Source of the DNA: Bacteroidales bacterium
GTDB taxonomy: Bacteria > Bacteroidota > Bacteroidia > Bacteroidales > UBA932
Direction: 5' to 3'
Assembly: GCA_017438975.1 (NCBI GenBank)
Contig: JAFRUH010000033.1
Coordinates: 62,001 to 126,000 of the forward strand
DNA length: 64,000 nt
The notes under the pieces are model-generated. The model ran no database searches. It was not told where the DNA came from and saw only the letters and a list, made by a program, of their open reading frames with translations. Positions 4,820-39,972 of this stretch are shown here, one piece after another; positions within the stretch are counted from its first letter, which is position 1, and every line of letters begins with the position of its first letter. A program made the translations under genes and the position numbers.

Positions 4820-4837
4820 ACCATTAAACAATTGAAT

Positions 4838-5584: not shown

Positions 5585-5606
5585 CCCCCGGGAAGCGCCC
5601 CGGGGG
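5585..5606. terminator. Hairpin between convergent fabG and comF-like genes
   Basis: CCCCCGGG at 5585-5592 pairs perfectly with CCCGGGGG at 5599-5606 around a six-base loop. The very stable 8-bp GC stem sits one base after the fabG stop and three bases before the end of the opposing gene, so it can act in both directions. There is no T-run on either side, so termination is inferred from position and stability. Confidence 0.6.
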
Positions 5607-5609
5607 AGC

Positions 5610-6323
5610 CTATCCGACGACGGAAAGGGTCGCGACACTGATGCGGACTGCCGGATACGCCTCCCGAATCACCCGGTAACAGGCGTTCAGGGTCGCGCCC
5701 GTCGTGAACACATCGTCAACCAGAAGAATGTGCCGGACACCTTCCGGCAGGGGTCTCCGGAGCGAAAAAGCTCCGGAGACATTCTTTTTCTTCTCCTCCA
5801 CCGCCTTCCGGATCTGCGTCCCGGTCCTGCGGGAACGGACGAGAAGATCCGCCCGGCAGGGCACTTGCAGGACGGAAGCGATTCCGCGGGCGAGGATCTC
5901 CGCCTGGTTGTAGCCGCGCCGCCACCGGCGGAGGAAGTGGAGCGGGACGGGAATGACGAGATCCGCATCTTTCAGGTGAGGGGCTTCCGAAAGGAATCGG
6001 CCGAGCATTTCCGCAAAAAAGCGTCCTCCGGACAGGTTTCCGGAATATTTGAGCGCATAGGGGATCCGTCGGTAGAGGGCCTGGGAACTGAACCGGAACA
6101 GCGCCGCCGCATAGGCATAGGGCTCATATTCCGCCGAGGGCAGGTCCCGCTGGATCATGGCGTTGAAGCGGTCCGCCATCGGATGATGCGTCAGGAGCCA
6201 GTTATAGGTCAGGGGCAGGTCGGAGAGGCAGTAAATGCAGATTTCGCGTTCCTGCAGCAGGAGCGTCCGGCCGCAAACGATGCAGGTCCGGGGAAGGAAG
6301 AGATCGAGAAGTGGAGTTTTCAT
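5610..6323 (-). CDS. ComF-family phosphoribosyltransferase-like protein
   Basis: The 237-residue protein begins with a zinc-ribbon (CIVC at about residues 14-17 and CIYC at about 29-32), followed by the type I phosphoribosyltransferase fold with the PRPP loop LLVDDVFTTGAT near residues 195-206. Upstream of that are DLVIPVPLHFLRRWRRGYNQ and RTGTQIRK, which are typical of ComF/GntX proteins. Family members are linked to DNA uptake in naturally competent bacteria and are widespread in Bacteroidota, where the role is less clear. The gene follows the CotH gene on the same strand after 19 bases and may be read through from the beta-glucan locus. Confidence 0.88.
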   Translation of the reverse strand: MKTPLLDLFLPRTCIVCGRTLLLQEREICIYCLSDLPLTYNWLLTHHPMADRFNAMIQRDLPSAEYEPYAYAAALFRFSSQALYRRIPYALKYSGNLSGGRFFAEMLGRFLSEAPHLKDADLVIPVPLHFLRRWRRGYNQAEILARGIASVLQVPCRADLLVRSRRTGTQIRKAVEEKKKNVSGAFSLRRPLPEGVRHILLVDDVFTTGATLNACYRVIREAYPAVRISVATLSVVG

Positions 6324-24333: not shown

Positions 24334-24357
24334 TACTACCGATCAACAACAATAACT

Positions 24358-25593
24358 ATGAAACGTTTCGTTCTGATGCTGGCAGTGGCGATCTGGATTC
24401 CGGCCGGCTTTTATTCCTGCGACAAAGTAGAAAAACCGGAGGAGACAATCTCCGTCGAATCCGTCAAACTGGACCAGACCCGGCTGGACCTGACGGAAGG
24501 AGAATCCAAATACCTGACCGCGACCGTCTCCCCATACCATGCCACCGATAAAAGAGTGACTTGGTCCAGTTCCGCCCCCGAAGTCGCAACGGTCAACGAA
24601 AGCGGCCTCGTGACCGCCGTCAAGGCCGGCAGCGCAACCATAACGGCCACGGCGGGAAACAAGAAGGCCGAGTGCCTCATCGCCGTCCGGGCCAAAGATG
24701 CACCCATCGCGGACGTCTTCCCCATCAATGTCGTAAAAGCCCTCCAGCAGCGCACCTCCCTCATCAAAACCCTCAGGGACAGCGTTTCCTACCGGCCCCA
24801 TGACAACGTGACCGTCACGGAAGTAAGTTACGTCGACCACGCCGGCGACAACCAGGCCGCCTTCGTCATGCAAGTCAATCTCGCCGATCCCCGGATCTCG
24901 ATCACCAACACGACTCCGGGAGATACCGATTTCGAGATAGGCCATGTCCAGCGCCAGAAACTCTCCGAGCAGTTCAAACTCATCGACAAAGCCGGACACC
25001 GGGTCATCGGAGGGGTCAATACGGATTTTTTCACGACGACCGGGACATACGCGGGGCGTCCGTCCGGGGTCTTCTGGCACTCCGGAGTCTGCTACCGGGA
25101 CGTCTTCGCATCGGAGACGAACCGCCCCCGCTGCTTCGTCTGGTGGGGAGAGGATGAGCACGTCCATATGGGCCATTCCTCCGACTACCCGGCCGCCAAG
25201 GCGACCGGCAAGATCCGGGAACTTTTCAGCGGCGGACAGATTCTCATAGAGGAAGGGAAACTGACGACGTTCATGGAAGATTCCGTATTCGGGACGCACC
25301 CGAGAACGATGTTCGGCTATACCTCCGATGACCGGAAGATCGTCCTCGTCGTCTTCGACGGACGCCAGAACACCTGGTCCGTCGGGGTCAATTATCCCGA
25401 CATGCAGGCCTTCATGAAGGCGCTCGGCTGCCGATGGGCGATCAACATCGACGGCGGCGGCTCCTCAACCTTCATCGTCCGGAAAAACGGAGCTTCCTTC
25501 ACGGACGCCGGCCGCTTCCTGATCAGGAACAAGCCCTCCGACGGCTCAGAACGCGCGATCGGCCCCGGCCTCGCCGTCATCGTAACGGATTAA
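24358..25593 (+). CDS. BIG2-domain lipoprotein with NAGPA-type phosphodiester glycosidase domain
   Basis: The 411-residue protein has a lipoprotein signal (AGFYSC), a bacterial Ig-like group 2 domain (about residues 32-117: LTEGESKYLTATVSP, VTWSSSAPEVATV, GLVTAVKAGSATITA) and a C-terminal NAGPA domain (about 150-410). The NAGPA core has GGVNTDFF, HPRTMFGYTSDDRKIVLVVFDGR and INIDGGGSST. The human namesake removes GlcNAc from GlcNAc-1-phospho-6-mannose; bacterial relatives cleave sugar phosphodiesters. Its stop codon shares TTAA with that of the convergent AraC gene. Substrate unknown; note the two other phosphoesterase genes at 32656 and 33452. Confidence 0.82.
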   Translation: MKRFVLMLAVAIWIPAGFYSCDKVEKPEETISVESVKLDQTRLDLTEGESKYLTATVSPYHATDKRVTWSSSAPEVATVNESGLVTAVKAGSATITATAGNKKAECLIAVRAKDAPIADVFPINVVKALQQRTSLIKTLRDSVSYRPHDNVTVTEVSYVDHAGDNQAAFVMQVNLADPRISITNTTPGDTDFEIGHVQRQKLSEQFKLIDKAGHRVIGGVNTDFFTTTGTYAGRPSGVFWHSGVCYRDVFASETNRPRCFVWWGEDEHVHMGHSSDYPAAKATGKIRELFSGGQILIEEGKLTTFMEDSVFGTHPRTMFGYTSDDRKIVLVVFDGRQNTWSVGVNYPDMQAFMKALGCRWAINIDGGGSSTFIVRKNGASFTDAGRFLIRNKPSDGSERAIGPGLAVIVTD

Positions 25594-26462
25594 ACGCTCC
25601 GCTTGTTCTTCTGGTACGTTTCCCGGTACTGTACGGGAGTCATGTTGCAAGTCGCCTTGAAGGTGCGGTTAAAGTTCGAGATATTGCTGAATCCGCACGA
25701 CCCGGCTATGTCTGAAATCTTTTCCGTCGTGTCCACCAGTTTCCTCGTCGCCTTCCCGATCCGGGTCTGGATGAGATAGGTATAGGGGGTAATCCCGGTC
25801 CGCGACTTGAAAATCCGGCATAAAGAGGTCGGAGACATGCCCAGGGAATCCGCAACTTCCTTCAGCGAAATTTTCCGGTCGAAGTTCATCTTGATGAAGT
25901 CCTTGGCCCCGGCCACTTCGTCCCGACCGAACTTATAGTCCGGCAGTTCGCCCGAAATTGCTGTGAGCGGGCGGTAGGGGGAACGTGCCAGGTCATTCAG
26001 GATCCTCTCGAAAAGGATCAGCTGTTCGAAAGGGTCCTTTTCTTCGACCATCCTGTTCAGCAGATGATAAACGGACAGTACGGACTGCATCCCGAAGGAA
26101 ATGCCCCTCGCGCTCGCTTCCAGCATCCTGACGATGGGCTCGAAAAGCCTCTTGCCGCGATAGTTCATCAGGAAAATGTTCCCGTCGAAATGGACGGTTA
26201 TCTCGCTGATATCGGACGACGAGCACGCTCCCTGTTCCCACGCGTGCTCGAGGTTGTCCCCCAGGATCACCAAGTCATAATCCCCGATTACCTCCGTGCT
26301 GTCCCGTACGATCCTCCGGGCGCCGTTTCCGTGTTCGATGAAATTCAACTCCATGACAGGATGCCTGTGGACGGGGTAAGAGAAGACGCGCTTATGCCGG
26401 TTTACGATCCGGAAACACTCGTCTTCCTTGAGCTCGGGAATAATGTCGACGACCTGTGCCAT
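25590..26462 (-). CDS. AraC-family transcriptional regulator with cupin sensor
   Basis: The 290-residue protein has an N-terminal cupin-like ligand domain (about residues 15-95, with HRHPVMELNFIEHG and LVILGDNLEHAW) and a C-terminal double helix-turn-helix (about 190-285, with ISLKEVADSLGMSPTSLCRIF and the second-helix signature ISDIAGSCGFSNISNFNRTFK). It is the RhaR/XylR-like class that senses a sugar in the cytosol. It is divergent from the ROK kinase/MFS genes across a 301-base spacer, which makes that operon its most likely target. Confidence 0.9.
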   Translation of the reverse strand: MAQVVDIIPELKEDECFRIVNRHKRVFSYPVHRHPVMELNFIEHGNGARRIVRDSTEVIGDYDLVILGDNLEHAWEQGACSSSDISEITVHFDGNIFLMNYRGKRLFEPIVRMLEASARGISFGMQSVLSVYHLLNRMVEEKDPFEQLILFERILNDLARSPYRPLTAISGELPDYKFGRDEVAGAKDFIKMNFDRKISLKEVADSLGMSPTSLCRIFKSRTGITPYTYLIQTRIGKATRKLVDTTEKISDIAGSCGFSNISNFNRTFKATCNMTPVQYRETYQKNKRSV

Positions 26463-26485
26463 ATTTCACTTTTTGGTAAGATATG

Positions 26486-26493
26486 CAAAGATA
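26486..26493 (-). promoter_or_regulatory. Candidate -7 element of the AraC-family gene
   Basis: On the minus strand this reads TATCTTTG, an exact TAnnTTTG, 24 bases upstream of the ATG. No clear -33 box lies at 19-20 bases. The remaining spacer to the ROK operon (26494-26705) is AT-rich, holds no open frame I would trust, and is where AraC operators would be expected. Confidence 0.5.
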
Positions 26494-26705
26494 ACGATAA
26501 TTATTATACAATATCATCTCCCGAATCACGAAATCAAGGCCGCAGAATGTCATTCCTGTCAATATAATATTATATCAGGCTGATGGAAAATAACAAAAAA
26601 CAAACCCGGCTCTTGCACTCGCGAGAATAAGCATAACAAGCTCATAAACAATTACTTATTACAGAATCACATCTTGAGGTTCAACCGACTGGAAAGCTCT
26701 GTCTT

Positions 26706-26737
26706 CTTGACAGTGGTGAATTATTTTCATACATTTG
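26706..26737 (+). promoter_or_regulatory. Promoter of the ROK kinase/MFS operon
   Basis: CTTG at 26706-26709, a 20-base spacer and TACATTTG at 26730-26737 fit the Bacteroidota pattern. The ATG follows 27 bases after the -7 box. Confidence 0.65.
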
Positions 26738-26763
26738 TTAAGACCACAAAGAGAGTACACGCC

Positions 26764-27711
26764 ATGCGTAAAACTATCGCCATCGATTTGGGAGGAACCA
26801 AAGCCCTGGGGGCTGTCTTTTCCCCGCTAGGAGTAATCCTTACCAGTAAAAACGTCTATCTCCGCGGCGCTTCCGGAGAGGCTGCGGGAGACCTTGTCCT
26901 GGGTCTCATCGACGAACTGGAATCCGCCGGCCCGGAGGGGAAGGTCGTCGCGGTCGGAATCTGCGTCCCCGGCATCGCATACCAGGACAGCGGGTGTGTA
27001 TGGGCTCCGAACATCCCCGGATGGGACCATTACCCGCTGCGGGAACGGATCCGGAACAAGATGGGGGAAGGGGTCCATGTCCGCATCGAGAGCGACCGGA
27101 CCTGCTATATCCTCGGGGAAACCTGGAAAGGGGCCGCCAAGGGGTCCAGGAATGCCATCTACATGGCTGTCGGAACGGGAATCGGAGCCGGGATCATCTC
27201 GGAAGGCCGCGTCCTGAGGGGCAGCGGAGACATCGCCGGTGCCATCGGCTGGATGGGCCTTGAATACCCGTTCCGGGAAGATTATGTCCAGACCGGATGC
27301 TTCGAATCCTACGCTTCCGGGAACGGCATCGGGCAGCGGCTCCGGGAAGCGGTCCTCGCCGCTCCGGAGTATTCCGGCGTCCTTTCGCGGAAGCCGGTCT
27401 CCGAACTCACCTCCTATGACGCCTTCGAGAACTATGACTCCGATCCGCTCGCCAGGGCGGTCCTGGACAAGGCGGTCGTCATGTGGGGCATGGCAGCGGC
27501 GAACCTGGCGAGCCTGCTGGACCCGGAAATCATCGTCTTCGGAGGTGGGGTCTTCGGCCCTGCGGCGCGATTCCTGGACCGGATCCGGGAGGAAGCCTGC
27601 AAATGGGGGCAGCCGATCGTGATGAAAAAACTCCGCTTCGCCGTTTCCGAACTCCCCGGAGAAGCCGCTCTCTTCGGGGCCGCCCGGCTCATCGCGGAGG
27701 AATCTGTATAA
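26764..27711 (+). CDS. ROK-family sugar kinase
   Basis: The 315-residue protein has the phosphate loop DLGGTKALG (from Asp8), the acidic catalytic residue Asp111 in ESDRTCYILGETWKG, and the glycine-rich AVGTGIGAGIISEG. The usual ROK zinc motif with three closely spaced Cys is reduced to a single Cys in QTGCFESYASG, so it either lacks zinc or binds it otherwise. It should phosphorylate a hexose or N-acylhexosamine in the cytosol. It is followed after 20 bases by an MFS transporter, suggesting uptake coupled to phosphorylation. I start at ATG 26764, after the promoter, because upstream in-frame sequence is not protein-like. Confidence 0.87.
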   Translation: MRKTIAIDLGGTKALGAVFSPLGVILTSKNVYLRGASGEAAGDLVLGLIDELESAGPEGKVVAVGICVPGIAYQDSGCVWAPNIPGWDHYPLRERIRNKMGEGVHVRIESDRTCYILGETWKGAAKGSRNAIYMAVGTGIGAGIISEGRVLRGSGDIAGAIGWMGLEYPFREDYVQTGCFESYASGNGIGQRLREAVLAAPEYSGVLSRKPVSELTSYDAFENYDSDPLARAVLDKAVVMWGMAAANLASLLDPEIIVFGGGVFGPAARFLDRIREEACKWGQPIVMKKLRFAVSELPGEAALFGAARLIAEESV

Positions 27712-27731
27712 TCCCGTTACAACCATAGACC

Positions 27732-28889
27732 ATGACAAAGAACTCATCACGCACCGGGTACTCCACCCCCGCCGTTTTCATCGCAGCCTGCGCCGGCATG
27801 TTCTTTTTCGGCGTGGCCATGCTCTCCCTGGGGCCCATCCTGGGCCAGCTCAACCAGCTCGTCGAAGGGGCCAACAAGCTGCCGGCGACGATGTCCATCG
27901 GCATTTTCCTGGGAACGATCCTCTTCGGTCCGGTCGTGGACCGTTTCGGATACAAATGGCTGCTGATTATCGGGTCCGTCCTGGAACTGGCCGGCCTCCA
28001 AGGCGTTGCGAACCTCGGTTCCATCGGAGCCCTGCACCTGTCCATCTTTTGTCTCGGACTGGGAGGTGGGATTCTGAACGGAGAGACGAACGCCCTGGTC
28101 TCAGACCTTTATGACGACTCCCGCAGAGGAGGCCGCCTGGGCCTTCTCGGGGCGTTCTACTGCATCGGGGCCCTCGTCTGGGTGCTGATGAATTATTTCA
28201 TTTCCGACTACCGGATTCCGCTGAACATCCTCTCCGCTGTCATGGCGGGCTTCATCGTATACTATTGCTTCCACCGATTCCCCGAGAAGCAGGCGTCGGA
28301 AAATGTCCCCGCCACGTCCATGGCCGGCCTGCTGAAATCCCTACCCCTGATCCTTTTCGCGCTCGTCCTCTTCTTCGAGAGCGGATTTGAAGGGGCGCAG
28401 TCCAATTTCACCATCCTCTACCTGGTTCAGGAAGGCGGACTGACCGCCGCCGTCGCCACCCTGGCCATGACCTGGTTCACGGTCGGAATGATGGGCGGAC
28501 GATTCCTGCTCGGGAAAATGATGGAGCGCCTGGGCTCGCTCAAGACCCTGTACGTATACCTGTCCGTGGCCCTCGCCGGCGTTTTGATGATGTTCATCCG
28601 TTCCTCCAGCCCGGTCCCGGCCTATGTGTCCATGGTCCTGATCGGATTCGGTGTCGGTGCGACTTTCCCCGTAATCCTCAATTACATCGGCGGGGCCTTC
28701 CAGGGCCGGTCCGGCTCGGCCATCTCGATCGCCATCGCCATCGCGCTGATCGGCCAGTATACCTTCAATTTCCTGACCGGCACCCTGTATGACCACGGCA
28801 ACTACGTCTCGCTGCCCTTCCTCCTCTCGGGCGCCATCCTTGTCATGATGGTCCTCGTCCCCGTTTCCGTCCGGGCTTCAAAAAAGTAA
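27732..28889 (+). CDS. MFS sugar transporter
   Basis: The 385-residue inner-membrane protein has about 12 helices in two halves with a central loop near residues 190-200. The MFS loop 2-3 signature appears as GPVVDRFGYKWLLIIG. It resembles fucose/glucose-type symporters of Bacteroidota, with LGLGGGILNGETNALVSDLY. It lies between the ROK kinase and the first GH28 gene and should bring in the sugar freed by the locus. Substrate not determinable from sequence. Confidence 0.85.
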   Translation: MTKNSSRTGYSTPAVFIAACAGMFFFGVAMLSLGPILGQLNQLVEGANKLPATMSIGIFLGTILFGPVVDRFGYKWLLIIGSVLELAGLQGVANLGSIGALHLSIFCLGLGGGILNGETNALVSDLYDDSRRGGRLGLLGAFYCIGALVWVLMNYFISDYRIPLNILSAVMAGFIVYYCFHRFPEKQASENVPATSMAGLLKSLPLILFALVLFFESGFEGAQSNFTILYLVQEGGLTAAVATLAMTWFTVGMMGGRFLLGKMMERLGSLKTLYVYLSVALAGVLMMFIRSSSPVPAYVSMVLIGFGVGATFPVILNYIGGAFQGRSGSAISIAIAIALIGQYTFNFLTGTLYDHGNYVSLPFLLSGAILVMMVLVPVSVRASKK

Positions 28890-28912
28890 GACAATCAAAT
28901 AGTTAAGTAATC

Positions 28913-29228
28913 ATGAATAAAGCTGCTTACCTTCTGACCGCCGTCCTTCTTCTGACGGGATTCGTCGCAAGGGCCGAACAGGCCAGCCTGGAGCCGGCCG
29001 CCCCGGCCGAATGCGTTGCGGTACTTTCTGCAGGCTTTCTTCGGAAAGAACCGGATGGCGGTCATCGCCATAAACGAGACCTCCGCCAAGCCGCAGGAGA
29101 CCCGGATTTCCGTCCCCGGATACAAATATGCCGGGCATTCGTTGATCGGGGACGCCACGGTAACTGGTGATAAGGTAACGCTCGGCAAGTACGGCGTCGC
29201 CGTCCTGATCTACGACAAACAAGAATAA
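28913..29228 (+). pseudogene. Remnant of a secreted protein: signal peptide and C-terminal end in different frames
   Basis: The first frame (28913 on) encodes a normal signal peptide, MNKAAYLLTAVLLLTGFVARA, then turns into nonsense composition. A second frame, open to the stop at 29226-29228, encodes a convincing protein end: FFGKNRMAVIAINETSAK followed by ISVPGYKYAGHSLIGDATV and VTLGKYGVAVLIYD, like the C-terminal beta-sandwich of an exported glycosidase. The frames would join near 28990-29010. Either most of a larger gene was deleted or a short exported protein of about 105 residues carries one frameshift. It sits between the MFS gene and the first GH28 gene. The 51 bases from 29229 to 29279 hold nothing else. 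Confidence 0.55.
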
Positions 29229-29279
29229 ACCTCTGTATTGACACAAAAGGCCCTATTAGTAACAAAAACCTGTTTTAAT

Positions 29280-30578
29280 ATGCGTAAAACCACCCTTATC
29301 CTCGCATTCCTGACCTTTTTGACCGCCTCGCATTCAGAAGCCAAGGACATCAACATCAAGTCCTTGGGTGCCAAAGGTGATGGAAAGACCCCGGCAACGG
29401 CCATCATCCAGAAGGCCATCGACGAAGTCCACAAAGCCGGCGGCGGCCGGGTCATCGTTTCCGGCGGCTCCTATCTGATAACCCCTTTTGAAATCAAGAG
29501 CAATGTCGAACTGTTCATCGACGCGGATGCGGTTCTCCTCGGGTCCACGAACCTGGAGGACTATCCGGAACGGCCGAATCCGAAGCATTATATCACCGAG
29601 AACATGCCCCGCTACCGGAACGTATCACTCATCTACGCCGATGAGGCAGAGAACATCGCCCTGACGGGGCGCGGAGTCATCGACGGTCAGGGCAGTTATT
29701 TTGTCAGGCCGAAGACCGGAGACAACTGGAAAGGCTGGCATTTCGAGCGGACAGTCCCGCGCGACAAATCGATGCCGCGCATGATCTTCTTCGCAGGATG
29801 CAAGAATGTCACCGTCCGGGACATCACTATCAAAGACTCTCCTGCCGCCTGGAGCTTCATGATCCACGACTGCGAAGTCGTCCAGTTCGACCACTGCAAG
29901 ATCTGGTCGGACCTGCGGTATATGAACAATGACGGTATCCACCTCAACTGCTGCCGGGATGTCACGATCTCCAACTGTGACATCAAGGTCGGCGACGATG
30001 CCATCGCCGTCTGCGCCAACAGCCGCTCCCTCCATGAAAACAAGTCCACCGAAAGGGTGGTCGTCACTAATTGCGTCATCCAGGCCTGGTCGACCGGCAT
30101 CCGGGTCGGTTGGACCGACCAGGGCGTCATCGCCAACTGCTCCTTCTCCAATCTCCAGATGAAGGACGTTTCCAAGGGCGTCGCATTCCAGTTCCCCGGG
30201 CCGTATAAGTCCACCAACAACTGGGGCCGGGAGTATACGCTGATCGAGAACCTGACCTTCTCCAACATCCGGATGGACCATGTCTATCTGCCCATTTACG
30301 GCATCATCGAAAAGGGCCCGGACCTGGTCCACATGAACGCCATCCGGAACATCAGTTTTACGGACGTCACCGCCACAGGCATGCAGTTCCCCTATTTCAA
30401 GGGACGGGAGGACTGCATGTTCGAAGAAATCAGTTTCAACAACTGCACGTTTGAGAAACGGCCGATCGAGGAATTCGCCGACTACCAGCGGCACGGGGAT
30501 GTTCCGGTCCCCGAGGGAGAACGGTTCGTTCATGTCAACAATATCCGATTCAACAATACACGTTTTATCAACAAATAA
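29280..30578 (+). CDS. Exported GH28-like parallel beta-helix protein (first copy)
   Basis: The 432-residue protein has a signal peptide (to about residue 21) and a pectate-lyase-3-like start, INIKSLGAKGDGKTPATAII, followed by a right-handed beta-helix. Of the polygalacturonase active-site set, NNDGIH (Asn216-Asn217-Asp218) and GDDA (Asp239-Asp240) are present, but the catalytic His region GHG reads STG and the RIK motif is not seen. It is therefore a divergent GH28 member, possibly acting on an unusual uronate-containing glycan or by altered chemistry. It is followed 11 bases later by the SIS gene, and a paralogue lies beyond that. I start at ATG 29280, which gives a clean signal peptide. 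Confidence 0.82.
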   Translation: MRKTTLILAFLTFLTASHSEAKDINIKSLGAKGDGKTPATAIIQKAIDEVHKAGGGRVIVSGGSYLITPFEIKSNVELFIDADAVLLGSTNLEDYPERPNPKHYITENMPRYRNVSLIYADEAENIALTGRGVIDGQGSYFVRPKTGDNWKGWHFERTVPRDKSMPRMIFFAGCKNVTVRDITIKDSPAAWSFMIHDCEVVQFDHCKIWSDLRYMNNDGIHLNCCRDVTISNCDIKVGDDAIAVCANSRSLHENKSTERVVVTNCVIQAWSTGIRVGWTDQGVIANCSFSNLQMKDVSKGVAFQFPGPYKSTNNWGREYTLIENLTFSNIRMDHVYLPIYGIIEKGPDLVHMNAIRNISFTDVTATGMQFPYFKGREDCMFEEISFNNCTFEKRPIEEFADYQRHGDVPVPEGERFVHVNNIRFNNTRFINK

Positions 30579-30589
30579 TCTTTAATCTT

Positions 30590-31354
30590 ATGTCTTTAGC
30601 ACAACAATGGAAACAGAACGCCTTCGATGTCATGAATAACATCGAGGCCACCCAGATGGATCAGATCCGCAAAGTCGCGGAAGTAATGGCCGATTGCATC
30701 CAGTCGGGCCACCTTGTCCACACCTTCGGCTGCGGCCACTCCAATATTCCGATCGAGGAAATGTACCCGAGAATCGGCGGGATCGTCGGTTTCCATCCCC
30801 TCTGCGAGCTTCCGCTGACCTTCTTCACCCACATCGTCGGCGAAATGGGCATCCACCAGTTCCTCTGGCTGGAAAGGCAGGAAGGCTACGGCCAGACGAT
30901 CATGGCCAGCTGGAAATTCGAGAAGGACGACCTGATGTGGATCTTCACCCATACCGGCATCAACGCCTGCGTGATCGACGTCGCCAACGAGGCGCACAAA
31001 CGCGGAATGAAGGTCATCGTCTGCGGCTCCGCATCCCGCACCGGAGACAAGGTCCCCCGCCATTCCTGCGGCAAGAACCTCTTCCAGATCGCCGATTACG
31101 TCGTCGATACCTGCTGCCCGCTCGAGGACGCCTCCGTGCCCCTGAAGAACCATTTCGACAAAATCGGCCCGCTTTCGACCATGGCCTCGGTAACCTGTGT
31201 CTGGATGATCATCACGACCGTTTGCGAGATCCTCGCCGACCGGGGTGTGAAACTGCATATCAACCCGTCCCACAACGTGCCGGGCGACACGACCGCCCAG
31301 GAGCGTCTCGACGCCGCCATCGAAGCCTATCGCGACAGCGTCCAGCGCTGCTAA
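30590..31354 (+). CDS. SIS-domain sugar-phosphate-binding protein
   Basis: The 254-residue cytosolic protein has a sugar isomerase (SIS) fold, with HTFGCGHSNIPIEEMYPRIGG as phosphate-binding turn and WIFTHTGINACVIDVANEA for the second half. It resembles the UPF0309-type SIS proteins, whose reaction is not well defined; they are often found beside sugar kinases and hydrolases. The last 53 bases, including the stop, are repeated exactly at 35130-35182. The gene itself is intact. Context suggests it handles a phosphorylated sugar made by the ROK kinase. Confidence 0.82.
   Translation: MSLAQQWKQNAFDVMNNIEATQMDQIRKVAEVMADCIQSGHLVHTFGCGHSNIPIEEMYPRIGGIVGFHPLCELPLTFFTHIVGEMGIHQFLWLERQEGYGQTIMASWKFEKDDLMWIFTHTGINACVIDVANEAHKRGMKVIVCGSASRTGDKVPRHSCGKNLFQIADYVVDTCCPLEDASVPLKNHFDKIGPLSTMASVTCVWMIITTVCEILADRGVKLHINPSHNVPGDTTAQERLDAAIEAYRDSVQRC
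31302..31354 (+). repeat. 53-bp direct repeat, copy 1 (3' end of the SIS gene)
   Basis: From AGCGTCTCGACG to CAGCGCTGCTAA this is base-for-base identical to 35130-35182, and the identity ends on both sides at the first flanking base. It encodes the C-terminus of the SIS protein (RLDAAIEAYRDSVQRC) and its stop. Together the copies bound a three-gene segment. Confidence 0.97.
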
Positions 31355-31366
31355 TATTGAGGAGAC

Positions 31367-32650
31367 ATGATGAAACGACTGATCCTCAGCCTTCTTGTCC
31401 TTTCTTCCTTGTCTCTCTGGGGGGCCGATTTCGACGTGAGGAAATATGGCGCCAAGGGAGACGGACAGAAAAAGAATACAGAGGCCCTTCAGAAAGCGAT
31501 CGACGCCTGCCACAAGGCAGGCGGCGGTCGCGTTGTCCTTCAGGAAGGCGTGTACATGACGGGCCCGATCGAGCTCAAGAGCGGGGTAAACCTGTATATT
31601 GACGCGACGGCCCGTTTGCTGGCCTCGCCGAATATCGAGGATTATCCCGAATGGCCGAATATCAAGCATGTCATCAGTGAGAACCTGCAGCGGGGGAACC
31701 GGAATACCTGCCTGATCCTGGCCGACGAGGCAGAACGGATTGCTATTACAGGTCGGGGCGTAATCGACGGAAACGGGACCTATTACGTCCGCAAGGAGAA
31801 ACGTGACAATGCCCATGGATGGCAGTATGTGCGGATTTATCCGAACGAGAAGTCCATCCCGCGTCTGGTCTTCCTGACCGGATGCAAGGATGTCCTGCTT
31901 GAGGATGTAACGATGCTCAACCAACCATCCAATTGGAGTTACCAGATCCATGACTGCGACCGGGTAACGATCCGTGGGCTGCAGATACTGGCAGAGTTAG
32001 CCTACGAAAACAATGATGGCATCCACGTCAACTGCTCTCGAGATGTTACCATCTCCGATTGTCATATCGAGACAGGCGACGACTGCATTATTATCCGGGC
32101 TAACAGCCGTTCCCTCCGAGAAAAGAAGCCTTGCGAGAGGATTGCGGTAACTAATTGCGTGCTTCGCAGCGGTTCTGGCTGCATCCGTCTGGGTTGGACC
32201 AACGACGGGGTGATTCGCCACTGCACTTTCTCCAACCTGGTCATGACGGACTCTTTCTGCGGCCTGGACATATACCTGCCACATCCCATCCGGAAAGACT
32301 ATGGTATTGAGCCGACGCTAATTGAGGACATGTCCTTCTCTAATATCACGATGACGGGGATGTACGGGATTCCGATCAAGGTAAATATTTCTCCGAATCC
32401 TGATACTCAGGTTGAAGCAGTCCGTGACCTGCGCTTTTCTAACGTACATGCGGTAAGTAAGTTGTTCCCTTATTTCCATGGCCGCGAAGGCAATCCTGTG
32501 CGGAGGTTTGTTTTCGACAACTGCAGTTTTACACGGGAAGCCGAGCCCGAAAAGCCCCAACCGGAAATCTTTCAGTTTGCCGAGGGTTTTGTCTTCAATA
32601 ACACTAGTTTTACCTCTTTACAGGTGCCCCCAAAAGAAGAAACCAAGTAG
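31367..32650 (+). CDS. Exported GH28-like parallel beta-helix protein (second copy, in cassette)
   Basis: The 427-residue paralogue of the GH28-like protein at 29280 starts with a signal peptide (to about residue 19) and FDVRKYGAKGDGQKKNTEAL. It keeps NNDGIH (Asn215-Asn216-Asp217) and GDDC (Asp238-Asp239), but again lacks the GHG histidine (GSGCIRLG) and RIK. GC content falls visibly along the gene compared with the first copy. GGAGA sits just before the ATG pair at 31367/31370, so either Met may be used. It is the first gene of the segment bounded by the 53-bp repeat and is followed by the GDPD gene after five bases. Confidence 0.82.
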   Translation: MMKRLILSLLVLSSLSLWGADFDVRKYGAKGDGQKKNTEALQKAIDACHKAGGGRVVLQEGVYMTGPIELKSGVNLYIDATARLLASPNIEDYPEWPNIKHVISENLQRGNRNTCLILADEAERIAITGRGVIDGNGTYYVRKEKRDNAHGWQYVRIYPNEKSIPRLVFLTGCKDVLLEDVTMLNQPSNWSYQIHDCDRVTIRGLQILAELAYENNDGIHVNCSRDVTISDCHIETGDDCIIIRANSRSLREKKPCERIAVTNCVLRSGSGCIRLGWTNDGVIRHCTFSNLVMTDSFCGLDIYLPHPIRKDYGIEPTLIEDMSFSNITMTGMYGIPIKVNISPNPDTQVEAVRDLRFSNVHAVSKLFPYFHGREGNPVRRFVFDNCSFTREAEPEKPQPEIFQFAEGFVFNNTSFTSLQVPPKEETK

Positions 32651-32655
32651 GGACT

Positions 32656-33459
32656 ATGCATAGTAAAAAGATCTTGATAATCCTCGTCATCATGCTGCTC
32701 GACTCGCTTATGCTCGCCGGGCAGGAACAGATGGTTAAGATATGTGCTCACAGGGGCTATTGGAAAAACGAGATGACCAAAAAGTCGGAGAACAGCATTG
32801 CCTCCCTCAAGTGTGCACAGAAGGAACGTTTTTGGGGAAGCGAAATCGATGTTCACTTGACAAAGGACAATGTTATCGTCGTAAACCATGACCGGACGAT
32901 AGATGGAATCACGATTCGCGAGAGTCCCTATTCCGCCATCAAAGGTCACAAACTGCCCAATGGAGAAGAACGCCCGACCCTCGACAAAATCCTGCGGCAA
33001 CTCAGCAAGTCCCACCGTACGATCCTGGTCCTGGAGGTTTGTGGCGGGGGGTCGGATGACCGGATGATCCTGCTCTCCGACCTTTGCATCCAAAAGTTGA
33101 TGGATCACCATCTTTTCGATCCGTCGCGGGTGATGTTCATCAGCGGCAATTTCGCCGTTTGCAACCACCTCGCCCGTGCTGCGCCCGGGTTTCAGGTTCA
33201 GTTCGTCAGTCGTGGCGAAGATCCGGATTCTTTGAAACAGTCGGGGGTAACAGGAATCGACTATGATTTCCACGCCTTTCAGGCACATCCCGAATGGGTC
33301 GCGCGTGCACATGAACTGGGTATGGACGTCAATGCGTGGGTGGTCAACCAAGAAGATCTTGTCCGGGAGATGATTCGTCTTGGCGTCGATTGTATCACAA
33401 CGGACGAGCCCATTCTGGTCCGCCAAATCCTCAAAGACATGGAGGATCACCATGAATAG
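32656..33459 (+). CDS. Exported glycerophosphodiester phosphodiesterase family protein
   Basis: The 267-residue protein has an N-terminal signal/anchor (about residues 1-22) and a GDPD barrel. Active-site landmarks are His32-Arg33 in AHRGYW, Glu45-Asn46 in SENSI, Glu63 and Asp65 in SEIDVHL, and His78-Asp79 in VNHD; the barrel ends with AWVVNQEDLVREMIRLGVDCITTDEP. Family members hydrolyse glycerophosphodiesters with a divalent metal. Base composition is lower in GC than the flanking genes outside the cassette. Its end overlaps the phosphoesterase gene by eight bases, implying joint translation. Confidence 0.9.
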   Translation: MHSKKILIILVIMLLDSLMLAGQEQMVKICAHRGYWKNEMTKKSENSIASLKCAQKERFWGSEIDVHLTKDNVIVVNHDRTIDGITIRESPYSAIKGHKLPNGEERPTLDKILRQLSKSHRTILVLEVCGGGSDDRMILLSDLCIQKLMDHHLFDPSRVMFISGNFAVCNHLARAAPGFQVQFVSRGEDPDSLKQSGVTGIDYDFHAFQAHPEWVARAHELGMDVNAWVVNQEDLVREMIRLGVDCITTDEPILVRQILKDMEDHHE

Positions 33460-35125
33460 ACGTTTTTTCCTTACCCTCTTTGCAAGCATTCTGAGCGCAT
33501 GCTCGATGTACAAGGTCAAGTTAAAGCCCGCAAAGAATAGGGATGGGCAGAATGAACCCCCGATTAAGGCGGAGAACAACTTGTACGGTACGATTACCGA
33601 TACAGAAGGGACCCCTCTCCCGAATGTTCCGGTATCGGACGGCTATCAGATTGTTTTGACCGACGCAAACGGAATTTACCAGATGAAGGCAGATCCCAGG
33701 AGTACCTTCGTCTATTATAGTTTGCCCGCCGGATACGCCATTATCCAAAACGAGGAGACCCATTTAGCAGATTTCTTCCAGAAGATATCGCCAAATGTCA
33801 GAAATAAGAGAAATTTTATTCTGAAAAAGTTACCGACGGCATCCGATACCTTTACCTTTGCCGTTCTCGGGGACATCCATGTCCGAGACGCTGCCACTTG
33901 TTCCCAATTCAGCAGCAGTGTCATGCGTCCTGTCGGAGAGTATTTCCGGCAACATGTGCCGAAAGGACTCAAGTTCGGGATAAGCCTTGGAGACATAATT
34001 GACGATGCAAAAAATCCGGAAACGTTCAATCTCACCCGAGAAGCACTCGGTAACTGTCAGTGTGGACCCGGAGAGTATCTTCCGTTCTATACGGTTATCG
34101 GAAACCATGATCACAATGCCTTTGGAGGTGACAGTCGGTTTACAGGGACCGAAGATTTCGACCTGGGAGCAGTCCGGGATTTTATGGAGGCCTACGGCCC
34201 TACCTGCTATTCATTTAACATCGGCAAGGTCCACTTCATCAGTTTGGATGATTACATCGCCCGGCAGGCCAAGACCAACGGCTCCGCTATTCCCACGAAC
34301 GGGCGGCTGGGGTTAAGCGAGGATGTATACAAGTGGCTTCTGAGCGACCTGGACTATGTTGAGGACAAGGCATCCAAGATGGTTGTCATTCTTGCACACG
34401 TCCAACTCAGGGGGTTGAAAGATGCCCCCCATCGGGATGACATGATTGAACGGCTTGCCCCTTTCAACAGTGCATATCTTTTTACCGCAAATGCACATAT
34501 TTGTGAGAGTTACAAATATGAAGTCAAGACTCGGAATGGCAATTCTGTCATGGAGCGTATCCATGGTGTCCCGATGGGTAATTTCTGGTATTCGCAGTAC
34601 TGTCCTGACGGTGCTTCTGCCGGATTTTACGTCTACCATGTTGACGGGAACGATTTTTCCAGCTGGGAATACAGAAGCCTTCATGATTCCCAGGACCAGA
34701 TGCGTGTGTATGACTCAAACGATGTTTATGACAAAGAGACCGATTGGTCACACAAGTATGTCTGGTCCAATGAGAGCCTGTTTGCCGGCGGGAACTTCCT
34801 CCTAGCCCATATCTACCACGGAGACGAGGATTGGGAGGTAACTCTTGAACATGATGGCAAATCTGAAAAGATGACTTTCGCCAATAAACGGATTTACGAT
34901 TATTGTGTCAACGCTCATCTGGTCAACGATAACGTCCCCGGCATCAAGACCAACTTTCCCTTCTTTTGGGACCGCTCCGAGAACTGGTGGTACCTGAAAT
35001 TAGATCGCCCCGCCTCCGAATTGCGTGGATGGAAAGTGGTCGCCAAGGCCAGGTTCCCGGGGAGCAAGACGGTTCTTACCTATACTTGCGACCGGATTAC
35101 CCATACCCTTTCAGAGACGACATAA
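33452..35125 (+). CDS. Calcineurin-like metallophosphoesterase lipoprotein
   Basis: The 557-residue protein has a lipoprotein signal (ILSAC), an Ig-like N-terminal domain (about residues 42-125: LYGTITDTEGTPLPNVPV, TDANGIYQM), a calcineurin-like catalytic domain (about 133-400) and a C-terminal beta domain. The metal ligands are GDIH (Asp141, His143), GD at Asp181, GNHD (Asn218-His219-Asp220) and AHVQ; the last GHxH motif appears as NAHI, slightly off consensus. GC is markedly low in places (about 35% at 33781-33840, against about 60% outside). It is the last gene before the second copy of the 53-bp repeat. Confidence 0.88.
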   Translation: MNRRFFLTLFASILSACSMYKVKLKPAKNRDGQNEPPIKAENNLYGTITDTEGTPLPNVPVSDGYQIVLTDANGIYQMKADPRSTFVYYSLPAGYAIIQNEETHLADFFQKISPNVRNKRNFILKKLPTASDTFTFAVLGDIHVRDAATCSQFSSSVMRPVGEYFRQHVPKGLKFGISLGDIIDDAKNPETFNLTREALGNCQCGPGEYLPFYTVIGNHDHNAFGGDSRFTGTEDFDLGAVRDFMEAYGPTCYSFNIGKVHFISLDDYIARQAKTNGSAIPTNGRLGLSEDVYKWLLSDLDYVEDKASKMVVILAHVQLRGLKDAPHRDDMIERLAPFNSAYLFTANAHICESYKYEVKTRNGNSVMERIHGVPMGNFWYSQYCPDGASAGFYVYHVDGNDFSSWEYRSLHDSQDQMRVYDSNDVYDKETDWSHKYVWSNESLFAGGNFLLAHIYHGDEDWEVTLEHDGKSEKMTFANKRIYDYCVNAHLVNDNVPGIKTNFPFFWDRSENWWYLKLDRPASELRGWKVVAKARFPGSKTVLTYTCDRITHTLSETT

Positions 35126-35129
35126 TTGT

Positions 35130-35182
35130 AGCGTCTCGACGCCGCCATCGAAGCCTATCGCGACAGCGTCCAGCGCTGCTAA
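35130..35182 (+). repeat. 53-bp direct repeat, copy 2 (detached SIS gene end)
   Basis: This is an exact copy of 31302-31354 with no gene body in front of it. It lies four bases after the phosphoesterase stop and five bases before the end of the convergent GH2 gene. Before the cassette arrived, the SIS gene probably ended here, directly against the GH2 gene. Confidence 0.97.
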
Positions 35183-35187
35183 CGGCT

Positions 35188-38034
35188 TTACTTGCTCTCC
35201 AGTTTGTAAACCAGGAAGCGACACCCTTCGGAGCTGTTCCGGAAACGGAACGGCTCCAGTCGTGTTACGCTGCGCCCTTCCGGGACGGAAACACCCTTGA
35301 ACACCTTCCGCTCCAGCACCCTGCCCTTTTCGTTCTGCAGCTCGACCGTCAAGGTCGCCGTACAGGCCTCGCCGAGATTGAAGATCACGGGACGGACCGG
35401 GTCGCCGGGTCCATAGACCACATCCACGTCGTCGCTGCCCGCCCAGGTCTTTGAAAAAACCATCCGGTTAGCGTGGAACGCCAGTTTCGGGACTCCGAAC
35501 GGATCGACCAGCGGCTTCTGGTAGGTGACCATGTTGGGGCCCGACTCCAGGGTGCACCAGGAGAACCCGCTGACCCCCATCAGGGTCTGCTTCTTCATGG
35601 ACTCCCAGGCGGAAAACGCCTGCCAGCCCTGGCTAGCACGCCACTCGTCATTCCCGAGAAGGCGGCCGATGGTCCCTTTCTCGTAATTCTTTTCATAGGA
35701 AGACAACTCGAACCAGGGTTCCTTCCGGGCCAGCGCCCAGTTCGGCTGGGCAATCGATTCCTCGTGCTCGAAATTGAAGTAGCAGAGGTCTTTGGCTTCC
35801 AGGCAGGATTTCGCCCAAGGCGACGGCGCTTTCCGCAGGACGCTCCAGTCCTTCTCGTATCCCGTATAGGAATCCTGGCTGCCCCGGGTCATCATCCGGT
35901 GCATCAGATTCGGATTGGGCGCATGCTTCCCTCCCTTAATATCGAGGGTTCCGTCATAGTTCGCGTAATGCATGTGCTGCCAGAAGGAGGTCGGGGAGAC
36001 CAGCCGGCTGCTGTCCGTCTCCGTGATGATCGGAACAATCTGATTGATAAAGTCCTCCGAATCGTTGAAATCGTGCCGCTTGAACCGGTTCGGGTGGTTG
36101 CTCGCCTCCCACATGACGATTGAAGGGTGGTTGTACACCTGCCGCATATATGTGGCATAATTTGCGAAATCGACGTTCCAGGCCTCTCCTTCCCGGATCC
36201 ATCCCGCCGTCTGCCAGATTAGGTAGAGGCCGAGCTGGTCGGCGTATTCGGCGTAGCGGGGATCATTGATCCCGTCCGAGGTGTTGAGCTGGGCATGGAC
36301 ATGGATCCTAAGCAGGTTCCCGAGCGCTTTGGTCATCATCAGTTCGCGCATGACCATCCCGTCCGTGGCGCAGCGGATCGTCTTGGAGATGGTTTCCAGC
36401 GGGAGGCGGAAACCCATGATCTGGGCCCCGTTCAGCATTTCCGGGCGGTGGTTGATATAGAGGACCCCTTCCCGCTGCTCGATGACGCGGATCCCGGTCG
36501 TCGTGACGTAATCGTCCACCGGCTTCCCGTTTTCGTCTTTCAGGATCACTTCGACCCGGTACAGCCGGGGTTCCGCCGGGCTCCAGAGCGCCGGATCGTC
36601 GAGGGTCAGGTCCATCTCCACGGGATTGTCGACTCGCGGCCGGAGCGAGACCTTACGCTCGAGGGACGCCACGCAGGGGCCCTCTTCCGGGAACCAGGGA
36701 TAATAATTCACCTGCACGAGTCCGGTACCGGGCAGGCCGGTGTCGTTCCGGAGCGTAATCTTATGGTGCTGGACAGCCTTCGACCCGTCCAGGGAGGCGG
36801 TATGGACCAGGGCCTCCACAATGCGGTCCGGCGTATCGGTCAGGACCAGCTCCGTCCGGCCGAGGAACCAGCCGATATAGGGATCGGAGGGGGCGTGGAG
36901 CATGTGCCGCTCCGGCTCAAAAGGCTTGACCCGCACGGCGATGGTATTTTCCCGCCCGGGAATCAGATACGGACCGATTTCGATTTCCCGGGGAATCCGG
37001 CCCTCCAGGACCGCCGCCACTTCACCGTTGATCCAGACCTCCCCTGCAGGATCGAGCGTTTCCATCCGAAGCAGGGCGTGGCTGAAGGAATCCACCTGGA
37101 CACGGGTCCTGAGGTAATAACTCTCTCCGGCGTCCTTCAGGCCTCCGTGTGAAGACGGCAGCAGAACCTCTTCCCAGGCCGAATCGTCATAGCCGAAAGT
37201 CTGCCACCCGTCCATGGACGGAACCGGCTCGAAATCCTCATCCCAGACCAGTTCCGACCGGTACGGCGTACGGAGATTCTCCTCCTGGCGCACGAAACGG
37301 TAGAAGGAAAGAGCCTCGACGGACGCTTTCCCGGACGGAGCGCCGATGGAAAATGCGGTGACGGGACCTCCCTTCCAGGGAATCTCTTTCACGGTCTTCC
37401 CCTCCGAGGAAAGGAAAATCCGTCCGTTCACGAGGTCCCCGTAAATCTCGAAGGACATCAGGGCTCCGACGGCGATCTCGAGAGGCATCCCCGCGGCCGG
37501 GGAAAGACGGACCACCAATCCGGAAGGGACGTCGCTGAGGAACACCTTGATCCGGAAACGCCAGTCGGCGGGGTCCATTCCCGGAGAAGCCATGACCCCG
37601 TCGAGGACGAGGCGCCCGTTCTCGATCCAGGCCCCGTCCCTGGTCCATTCCCGCAGCGCGGCATCTTTCCCGGACTCCTTTCCTCTCTTATAACCATAGG
37701 CGCGCCACGCTTTCAGCGGAAGCGTCCTCCGGACAGAGGTCAGAGGCCGGGGCTTGACCCTGGCAAGGCGTTCCTGAACCGCCGATTCCGGGAACAGGGG
37801 CGTATCCAGGCCCGGATCCCCCCAGAAACGGGAAGCGTAAGCGGCGTACTTGTTCAGCAGGTCGACCCGCTGATCCGTGTCCAGCCACTCCGTTTCCCCG
37901 TGGAAATCCGTGCTCCCGTCTGCTTTCGGGTCTTTCGTAAAATACCGCATCTCGAAAGTGGTCTGCATCTGCTGCGCACCCGCCGGAAGGACTGCCATCC
38001 AGGCGAGAAGAAAAAGGACGATTCGGCTCCTCAT
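35188..38034 (-). CDS. Exported GH2-like protein with altered active-site motif
   Basis: The 948-residue protein has a signal peptide (LPAGAQ), a long N-terminal region of its own (about residues 20-270), a GH2 sugar-binding domain (about 270-400: SYYLRTRVQV, EVWINGEVAAVLEG), an Ig-like domain (about 410-530) and a TIM-barrel region (about 530-830). In most GH2 enzymes the acid/base is the Glu of an Asn-Glu pair; here the site reads VMWEASNHP, with Asn646-His647, although Glu643 is close by. FEHEES near residue 760 is a possible nucleophile region. It may be an inactive or chemically divergent GH2. It is convergent with the cassette and divergent from the FAD oxidoreductase gene. Confidence 0.78.
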   Translation of the reverse strand: MRSRIVLFLLAWMAVLPAGAQQMQTTFEMRYFTKDPKADGSTDFHGETEWLDTDQRVDLLNKYAAYASRFWGDPGLDTPLFPESAVQERLARVKPRPLTSVRRTLPLKAWRAYGYKRGKESGKDAALREWTRDGAWIENGRLVLDGVMASPGMDPADWRFRIKVFLSDVPSGLVVRLSPAAGMPLEIAVGALMSFEIYGDLVNGRIFLSSEGKTVKEIPWKGGPVTAFSIGAPSGKASVEALSFYRFVRQEENLRTPYRSELVWDEDFEPVPSMDGWQTFGYDDSAWEEVLLPSSHGGLKDAGESYYLRTRVQVDSFSHALLRMETLDPAGEVWINGEVAAVLEGRIPREIEIGPYLIPGRENTIAVRVKPFEPERHMLHAPSDPYIGWFLGRTELVLTDTPDRIVEALVHTASLDGSKAVQHHKITLRNDTGLPGTGLVQVNYYPWFPEEGPCVASLERKVSLRPRVDNPVEMDLTLDDPALWSPAEPRLYRVEVILKDENGKPVDDYVTTTGIRVIEQREGVLYINHRPEMLNGAQIMGFRLPLETISKTIRCATDGMVMRELMMTKALGNLLRIHVHAQLNTSDGINDPRYAEYADQLGLYLIWQTAGWIREGEAWNVDFANYATYMRQVYNHPSIVMWEASNHPNRFKRHDFNDSEDFINQIVPIITETDSSRLVSPTSFWQHMHYANYDGTLDIKGGKHAPNPNLMHRMMTRGSQDSYTGYEKDWSVLRKAPSPWAKSCLEAKDLCYFNFEHEESIAQPNWALARKEPWFELSSYEKNYEKGTIGRLLGNDEWRASQGWQAFSAWESMKKQTLMGVSGFSWCTLESGPNMVTYQKPLVDPFGVPKLAFHANRMVFSKTWAGSDDVDVVYGPGDPVRPVIFNLGEACTATLTVELQNEKGRVLERKVFKGVSVPEGRSVTRLEPFRFRNSSEGCRFLVYKLESK

Positions 38035-38059
38035 AAATACCTTTGATTGCTATTCTCCT

Positions 38060-38067
38060 CAAATATA
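38060..38067 (-). promoter_or_regulatory. Candidate -7 element of the GH2-like gene
   Basis: On the minus strand this reads TATATTTG (TAnnTTTG), 25 bases before the ATG at 38034. No good -33 box is visible. Confidence 0.45.
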
Positions 38068-38091
38068 CGATAAACTGTTCTGATTTTTTTA

Positions 38092-38099
38092 TATCTTCG
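38092..38099 (+). promoter_or_regulatory. Candidate -7 element of the two-domain FAD oxidoreductase gene
   Basis: TATCTTCG matches TAnnTTTG with one change and lies 19 bases before the ATG at 38119. It faces away from the GH2-like promoter in the same short spacer. Confidence 0.4.
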
Positions 38100-38118
38100 C
38101 TGCAAAGAGTTCCTCCCT

Positions 38119-39972
38119 ATGAAAAAAAGCATCTCACTTCTTCTGGTTTCCCTCTTGCTGCTGGGCTGCTCGAGCGCACCCGCTGCCTTCATCGACGCTG
38201 AATCTCTCGAAAATCCCGGGGGCTGGGTCACGGACCAGCAGGCGATGGATGTCCTCGGTTCGCCGTACCTCCTCGCCCATGGCGCGGGCGTACCGGTCGA
38301 GGACGCGTCCGGGACAGTAACGCTTCCGGAGACAGGGCGCTGGCACGTCTGGGTCCGGACCTATAACTGGACTTCGCCCTGGTCGGAGAAGGAAGGACCG
38401 GGAGCGTTCTGCGTAACCATCGGCGGAGAATCGCTGGGGAAGACCTGCGGGACGACCGGAAAAGGATGGGAATGGCAGTATGCCGGGAGTTTCAGGGCCT
38501 CCGGGAAGGAGATTTCCCTCGGCCTTCACGATCTCACGGGATTCGACGGTCGGTGTGATGCGGTCGCCTTGACCAAGTCACGCAGGGCGGTCCTTCCGGA
38601 GACTCCCGAGGAAATGCACGCGCTCCGTCTCGCCTTCGATCCGGACTATGATACACCGGCCGAAACGACTGAGTATGATTTCGTTGTCGTAGGAGGCGGG
38701 ATCTCCGGGATCTGTGCCGCCGTCGCCGCCGCCCGGCTCGGGCTGAAAGTCGCCATCCTCAACGATCGGCCGGTCCTCGGAGGCAACAACAGCGCCGAAA
38801 TCCGGGTCCATCTCGGGGGCCGGATCGAACTGGATCCTTATCCGAACCTCGGGAACCTGATCAAAGAATTCGGCCACAAGGCGTGCAAGAACGCTGACGC
38901 GGCGGAAAAATTCGAGGACGGGAAAAAGGAGGATATCCTCCGTAGCGCAGGGGTCGATATCTTCGCTCCCTACCACGCCGTTTCGGTCGTCAAGGACGGC
39001 TCCCGGATCGCATCGGTCGATGCCAGGGAGATCAATTCCGGGAAACTGATCCGCCTCTCGGCTCCGCTCTTTTCCGATTGCACCGGTGACGGGAACCTCG
39101 GGTTCATGGCCGGTGCCGACTGGACGGAAGGGCGGGAGGCCAGGAGCGAATACAACGAACCCATGGCCCCGGAAACGGCTGACAAAGAGCATCTTGGAGC
39201 CTCGCTCCTCTGGAACTCGAAGGACACCGGCGCACCCTCTGCCTTCCCCGAATTCGAATATGGACTCCACTTCTCGGACAGCACGGTCCAACGGGTGAAA
39301 AAGAGCGAATGGTACTGGGAGACCGGCCTCAGCGACGATATGATCAAGGACGTCGAACGCATCCGCGACTTCGGCCTCCTCGCGGTCTATTCGAACTGGT
39401 CATTCCTGAAAAACCACGCCTCCGGGGCGGAAGAATTCACCAGCCGCGCCCTCGACTGGGTCGCCTATATTACCGGGAAGCGCGAATCCCGGCGCCTCCT
39501 CGGGGACCATGTCCTGACGGAAAACGACATCGTGGACGTCATTCCCTATCCGGACGGAACCTGCTCGACTTCCTGGTCCATCGACCTCCACTACCGGAAA
39601 CCCGAGAACAGCCGGGACTTCCCCGGGATGGAGTTCATGACGACCGCGGAGCACAAGTATTTCGAGCCCTATCCGATTCCCTACCGCTGCCTGTACAGCC
39701 GCAATATTGACAATCTTTTCATGGCCGGACGGGACATCAGCGCGACGCACGTCGCCCTCGGATCGACCCGGGTCATCCGCACCTGCGGCATGATGGGCGA
39801 GGTCGTCGGCATGGCGGCGTCCGTCTGCAAGGCCCACGGGTCCCTGCCCCGGAGCGTCTATACGGATTATCTGTCAGAGCTCCAGGCCCTTATGAAAGAG
39901 GGCGTCGGCCAGAAAGGTCTCCCCAACGACCAGACTTTCTGCATTCACGGCTGCTACCCGCCGAAGCAGTGA
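38119..39972 (+). CDS. Exported FAD-dependent oxidoreductase with N-terminal beta-sandwich
   Basis: The 617-residue lipoprotein (signal LLLLGC) has a carbohydrate-binding-like beta-sandwich (about residues 22-155: WHVWVRTYNWTSPW, AGSFRASGKEISLGLHD), then an FAD domain (about 185-605) with VVVGGGISGICAAVAA, GGNNSAEIRVHLGG, DCTGDGNLGFMAGA and the C-terminal GRDISATHVALGSTR. The FAD part is of the PF12831 type also seen at 48940 and 62789. These proteins recur in Bacteroidota polysaccharide loci and are sometimes named after xanthan lyase; their reactions are mostly unknown. It ends three bases from the convergent Lrp gene. Redox action on a sugar is an inference. Confidence 0.8.
   Translation: MKKSISLLLVSLLLLGCSSAPAAFIDAESLENPGGWVTDQQAMDVLGSPYLLAHGAGVPVEDASGTVTLPETGRWHVWVRTYNWTSPWSEKEGPGAFCVTIGGESLGKTCGTTGKGWEWQYAGSFRASGKEISLGLHDLTGFDGRCDAVALTKSRRAVLPETPEEMHALRLAFDPDYDTPAETTEYDFVVVGGGISGICAAVAAARLGLKVAILNDRPVLGGNNSAEIRVHLGGRIELDPYPNLGNLIKEFGHKACKNADAAEKFEDGKKEDILRSAGVDIFAPYHAVSVVKDGSRIASVDAREINSGKLIRLSAPLFSDCTGDGNLGFMAGADWTEGREARSEYNEPMAPETADKEHLGASLLWNSKDTGAPSAFPEFEYGLHFSDSTVQRVKKSEWYWETGLSDDMIKDVERIRDFGLLAVYSNWSFLKNHASGAEEFTSRALDWVAYITGKRESRRLLGDHVLTENDIVDVIPYPDGTCSTSWSIDLHYRKPENSRDFPGMEFMTTAEHKYFEPYPIPYRCLYSRNIDNLFMAGRDISATHVALGSTRVIRTCGMMGEVVGMAASVCKAHGSLPRSVYTDYLSELQALMKEGVGQKGLPNDQTFCIHGCYPPKQ

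Follow-up and report, generated by a model that had tools for sequence, protein, structure and literature searches.

Integrative elements and cis-mobilizable elements (CIMEs) that occupy the 3′ ends of genes leave a direct repeat by which the host gene stays intact and the distal end of the insert is closed off. Here we describe a locus of similar appearance in a window of 64,000 nucleotides from a Bacteroidales bacterium (assembly GCA_017438975.1, contig JAFRUH010000033.1, positions 62,001 to 126,000), in which the last 53 bp of a sugar isomerase (SIS) gene recur behind a trio of downstream genes encoding a GH28 family glycoside hydrolase (GH28b), a glycerophosphodiester phosphodiesterase (GDPD) and a calcineurin-like phosphoesterase (PE). 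General recombination can also leave such a repeat. In E. coli conjugation with homology at one end only, the DNA mostly entered with duplication of part of the target gene end (56 of 60 Lac− clones; PMC3240628). The 14 duplication clones that were sequenced carried 109–950 bp duplicated, homology-facilitated illegitimate recombination (HFIR) was seen in 4/60, and the authors read the duplication as a single crossover of a circular molecule short of part of the homologous end. Tandem duplications giving merodiploidy (PMC3784515) join the end of a unit to its own beginning across ~100–900 kb via repeats.

The genome of the window, hereafter G000, is a draft assembly (2.80 Mb, 33 contigs, 3.61% contamination), and all absences given below hold for the collections searched. 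The relatives that matter most are G002 (RUG14177, same genus; SIS locus on contig C379, CADBPH010000379.1), L012 (JAUMVX010000002.1, same genus) and G286, the one relative that has common flanks. An earlier note on this DNA had described two stretches identical over 53 bases and diverging at both edges, the first being the true end of the SIS gene and the second an orphan end without a body, 5 bp before a GH2 gene; sequence comparison confirmed all of this, and Pfam confirmed the GH28, GDPD and phosphoesterase genes between the copies. The features concerned are as follows.

31302 to 31354, + strand: repeat copy 1, the true SIS 3′ end, made up of its final 50 coding bases (16 codons plus two bases) followed by the stop codon.
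35130 to 35182, + strand: repeat copy 2, an orphan duplicate of the SIS 3′ end without gene body, between PE and GH2.
35126 to 35129, + strand: joint bases ttgt, from the PE stop to copy 2, with no base in common with the sequence directly upstream of copy 1.
30590 to 31354, + strand: SIS gene, sugar isomerase domain protein (Pfam PF13580; NCBIfam NF002805 above cut-off; placed in the protein tree with G002 and L012).
31367 to 32650, + strand: GH28b, GH28 family glycoside hydrolase (Pfam PF00295; homologue directly behind SIS in G002).
32656 to 33459, + strand: GDPD, glycerophosphodiester phosphodiesterase (Pfam PF03009).
33452 to 35125, + strand: PE, calcineurin-like phosphoesterase (Pfam PF16371, PF16370 and PF00149; 96% DNA identity to G002).
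35188 to 38034, − strand: GH2-like gene, the convergent flank (Pfam PF00703; its G286 homologue abuts an NAGPA-type gene).

The two copies form an exact direct repeat (100% identity, 3,828 bp apart) with 0 common bases directly upstream and T versus C directly downstream. This is the longest exact repeat of the window, and a chance origin is ruled out by the longest repeats of 40/40 first-order Markov sequences of the same size, which measured 14–19 bases. A search of the whole genome (33 contigs) found these two copies of the 53-bp sequence and no further one. The edges of copy 2 are unlike, since it starts at an arbitrary position of SIS behind a homology-free joint (0 shared bases) and ends exactly at the SIS stop; it lies 4 bp past the PE stop (35123–35125), and 5 bp separate it from the stop end of the GH2-like gene (35188). 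After the first of the four joint bases, the G002 sequence departs. Neither a promoter nor a terminator was predicted at copy 2, and the prediction totals (3 promoter-like and 4 terminator-like) were no higher than in shuffles. The tight fit of the trio between the repeats, to which attention had been drawn, is real as spacing, but on the left it reflects usual operon spacing rather than a repeat-specific edge, because the gap between SIS and GH28b, 12 bp in the window, is a similar 16 bp in G002. The copies differ from each other at 0/53 positions, as against 11/53 between G000 and G002 and 12/53 between G000 and L012, so that the duplication looks recent and of same-species source.

On C379, G002 has SIS-GH28b-GDPD-PE in the order of the window and with nearly the same spacing, and no SIS end is found downstream of PE on this contig, which ends ~100 bp past PE. 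In L012, SIS is followed directly by nagA (TIGR00221 at 251.5 bits, cut-off 225.65). A trio behind SIS without a second repeat in the one species, and SIS next to nagA in the other, make the trio look like an operon extension, which probably followed SIS before G000 and G002 diverged, L012 having never had it or having lost it. In the SIS protein tree, the window protein groups with that of G002 (100/95) and then with L012 (100/99), with G286, G433 and G355 apart. Among the matches listed from 400 sampled genomes of the genus, with the best two candidate places per genome scored, those that cover SIS and the trio almost completely at the DNA level come from G000 and G002 only. PE-like DNA matches of 67–70% occur within the genus in G286, G499, G296, G558 and G462, and at E ≤ 1e-60 PE was found in its own genome only among 393 sampled genomes of the order. 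A single informative relative, G002, recasts an apparent mobile cassette as an operon with a scar.

What follows PE in G002 is likely to be the start of nagA, judging from a short frame. It opens ~25 bp past PE (MDTIIKIQGGKVLTPSGIAHANIIV) before the contig ends, and matches the L012 NagA start at 8/19 positions in the same N-terminal register (E = 2e-4 in a single-protein search); Pfam gave no match for the 25-residue fragment, and the L012 NagA protein as query found no match in G002 and none in L009 at E ≤ 1e-5. The weaker case for nagA in G002 lowers one supporting detail and leaves the odds of the explanations weighed below unaffected. In G000, nagA is absent from this place; the NagA relatives found in the genome both lie on contig C22, the first with 45% identity and the second with a weak partial match of 29%.

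Parts of the locus differ in their history. At fourfold sites, the identity between G000 and G002 is 0.47 in SIS (47/100), 0.59 in GH2 (239/405) and 0.615 in GH28b (112/182), rising to 0.76 in GDPD (81/106) and 0.90 in PE (198/221). Compared with GH2 by Fisher's test, PE (P = 6e-17) and GDPD (P = 0.001) differ, GH28b does not (P = 0.59), and SIS is slightly lower (P = 0.03). Third-position GC falls from 0.82 in SIS to 0.57 in PE. GDPD and PE are thus far more alike in the two species than SIS or GH2, from which we conclude that part of the trio has been horizontally exchanged; on these sequence comparisons, GDPD and PE appear to have been exchanged more recently than the rest of the locus, and the SIS-GH28b neighborhood seems to go back about as far as the split of the two species. 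A SusD-like gene farther along (window 42006–43799, compared with L073) has 97.6% DNA identity to G286, against 82–93% for the four other genes compared with G286, which suggests that it too may have been recently exchanged.

Our tentative preference, held at somewhat short of even confidence, is that the orphan copy is the scar of general, non-site-specific recombination in which an end-joined fragment was inserted into an allele lacking the trio. The starting chromosome would have had the SIS stop codon already fused to the GH2 side. A same-species donor would have supplied a fragment that starts within the SIS end and covers GH28b, GDPD and PE. After trimming, the far end of this fragment, just past the PE stop, would have been linked to the fragment's own SIS end without the help of homology. 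The joined fragment would then have entered by a single crossover within the common SIS end, and the product would carry, from left to right, the whole host SIS, the trio and a truncated SIS end. The unlike edges of copy 2 support this insertion route, since an arbitrary start fits a trimmed DNA end and an exact SIS stop fits the limit of the common sequence. As in events of the HFIR or circularized-fragment kind, one joint lies at the limit of homology and the other was made without homology (0 bases after PE). The identity of the copies points to a same-species donor end, although the donor was not seen. The likeness to the E. coli single-crossover and HFIR products (PMC3240628) lies in the short direct repeat of the target gene end on either side of an insert and in a joint that needs no homology; the differences are that 109–950 bp were duplicated in the 14 clones there and 53 bp here, and that here the product alone is seen. 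The earlier note had offered homologous recombination with a related SIS locus as one way to form the structure, and its interpretation is supported in part: the duplication looks recent, some of the trio has been passed from one species to another, and insertion at the SIS end is possible. The empty site that it had proposed to look for, in which SIS is joined directly to GH2, was not found in the relatives examined.

Several points weigh against the insertion route. None of the relatives examined showed an allele that has SIS fused to the GH2 side and lacks the trio: there was no GH2 match in the SIS loci of relatives and no SIS match in GH2 loci taken with their flanks from seven relatives (G317, G335, G337 and G003 also matched and were not included). 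A length of 53 bp falls below the 109–950 bp of the E. coli case (PMC3240628). GH28b is as divergent from its G002 counterpart as GH2 is (P = 0.59), so that the left half of the trio does not appear to be a fresh import from a G002-like source, and a same-species or third-species donor is needed, of which none was seen. A RecA crossover over 53 bp would also be a very short one. Finally, tandem duplication followed by deletion yields the same end product.

This last explanation is the strongest of the rivals, possible though on balance doubtful. Here the stretch 31302–35129 (3,828 bp), which begins within the SIS end and stops just past PE, would have been duplicated in tandem via a homology-free joint, after which the second GH28b-GDPD-PE and the DNA following it, perhaps including nagA, would have been lost up to the GH2 side, so that of the second unit the SIS end alone was kept. 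A duplication of this kind creates precisely the joint of PE to the SIS end that is found here, and of the second unit 53 bp remain. The starting point would be the arrangement of G002, SIS-GH28b-GDPD-PE and then probably nagA, and no external donor would be required; other decay is also present at the locus, in the form of a gene remnant between MFS and GH28a. However, two events are required, and the deletion would have to begin exactly past the stop codon of a body-less SIS fragment, a position for which there is no selection. The merodiploid duplications (PMC3784515) have a like joint of unit end with own beginning but are ~100–900 kb long and arise via repeats, whereas here the unit would be 3.8 kb, the joint is repeat-free and most of one unit is gone. 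Both the insertion route and duplication with deletion are ordinary general recombination, and the locus is in that sense a clean natural example of how sugar-use operons of uncultured gut Bacteroidales gain and lose genes by seemingly ordinary recombination. The locus also shows that the repeat of a gene end may pass for the mark of an integrative element.

It could also be that the second copy is an assembly artefact, produced by the merging of strain variants with the trio and with SIS next to GH2, or by a chimeric read at the joint, but we consider this improbable. The fragmentation and contamination of the draft would allow it, and the G002 assembly breaks hereabouts as well, C379 ending ~100 bp past PE and C70 inside the 3′ part of GH2, which may mean that the sequence is variable. 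Against this, the joint of PE and copy 2 has no parental overlap, so that an overlap-driven misjoin cannot make it; 53 bp is moreover smaller than an ordinary read and is not a usual assembler word length.

Very unlikely, in our view, is site-specific integration at the SIS end of a passive element, a cis-mobilizable relic, in which case the two 53-bp repeats would be attL and attR and the recombinase would come from another source. The anatomy is that of such elements, which carry their cargo between direct repeats of a gene 3′ end, and here too direct repeats stand at both ends and one of them completes a gene 3′ end. The genome also holds seven tyrosine-integrase (PF00589) matches, three of them on the contig of the window. 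None of the seven lies in the window, however, and the nearest one on the contig ends ~68 kb away (C33:25718 versus C33:93302), so that the statement that no integrase is present was borne out for tyrosine integrases, the search having been made with PF00589 alone and serine recombinases and transposases not having been searched for. The integrative-element style of event that had been proposed also finds no support in the G002 trio without right-hand repeat, in the lack of an empty site among the relatives examined, or in the related SIS loci, where a second copy of the own SIS end was found in 0/42. When the final 120 bases of SIS were compared with the rest of each of these loci, no exact repeat exceeded 13 bases; 43 loci had been entered, of which L027 gave no stop, not all are independent species, and some have little DNA past SIS, down to 189 bp. 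Omitted from this count were L029, L041 and L048 (SIS near or cut by a contig end), L007 (SIS-like, 31% identical) and, as repeats of places already counted, L004–L006, L013, L082–L084, L088–L090, L095, L096 and L100. The suggested search for other gene sets between copies of the 53-bp sequence likewise found none in the loci searched, and thus no other occupied site. In viral contigs the exact 53-bp sequence had 0 matches, and a PE peptide pattern matched 7 stretches, none encoding a relative; plasmid and phage records yielded, as possible vehicles of PE, only relatives of 27–31% identity (3 plasmid and 3 phage records). Nothing points to a site-specific or specialized passive element, and a new kind of mobile element is not indicated as the cause of the second copy. 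Very unlikely, too, is the proposal that the trio is a passive catabolic cassette moved among rumen Bacteroidales by recombination machinery acting in trans, with the conserved SIS 3′ end as its landing site; if true, gene sets could enter and leave sugar operons with no mobile-element gene involved.

The trio and SIS belong to a larger block that also varies between species, for which two further features are needed.

25601 to 35187, no single strand: block of ~9.6 kb comprising AraC, ROK, MFS, a gene remnant, GH28a, SIS, the trio and copy 2, missing at the corresponding place in G286.
29283 to 30578, + strand: GH28a, a second GH28 gene directly ahead of SIS (48% identity to GH28b).

In G286, which matches the flanks best, an NAGPA-type gene abuts GH2 without the whole block from AraC to copy 2, which amounts to a larger empty site: window 24357–25600 corresponds to G286 C2:155876–157119 and window 35189–39900 to C2:151143–155874. 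With this one relative, the difference may reflect either a gain in G000 or a loss in G286. Where the missing block begins on the left (25590–25603), the AraC stop overlaps the end of the NAGPA-type gene, and the last AraC codons, judged by eye, appear to sit on flank sequence common with G286. The order ROK-MFS-SIS recurs in many Bacteroidota and also in some other phyla. The FabG and ComF homologues that adjoin in the window (4832–6323) are separated in G286 by a ROK-MFS-SIS operon of another SIS lineage (L101, C2:174000–193000), so that the SIS operon sits at different places in the two species.

MFS and SIS adjoin directly in L012 and G286, and GH28a stands between them in the window. No SIS remnant was found between MFS and GH28a; the stretch at 28913–29225 is a remnant of another gene, with a signal-peptide-like start followed in another frame by a 67-residue tail that has a weak match, below cut-off, to a GH42 C-terminal domain (E 0.002). 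From these parts it looks like a secreted glycosidase gene cut down by deletion. Elsewhere in G000, a PE paralogue of 65% identity (L079, C27:123892–125592) stands beside an NAGPA-domain gene that also has a weak histidine-phosphatase match, below cut-off, and a relative of the phosphoesterase is present in G286 on C12.

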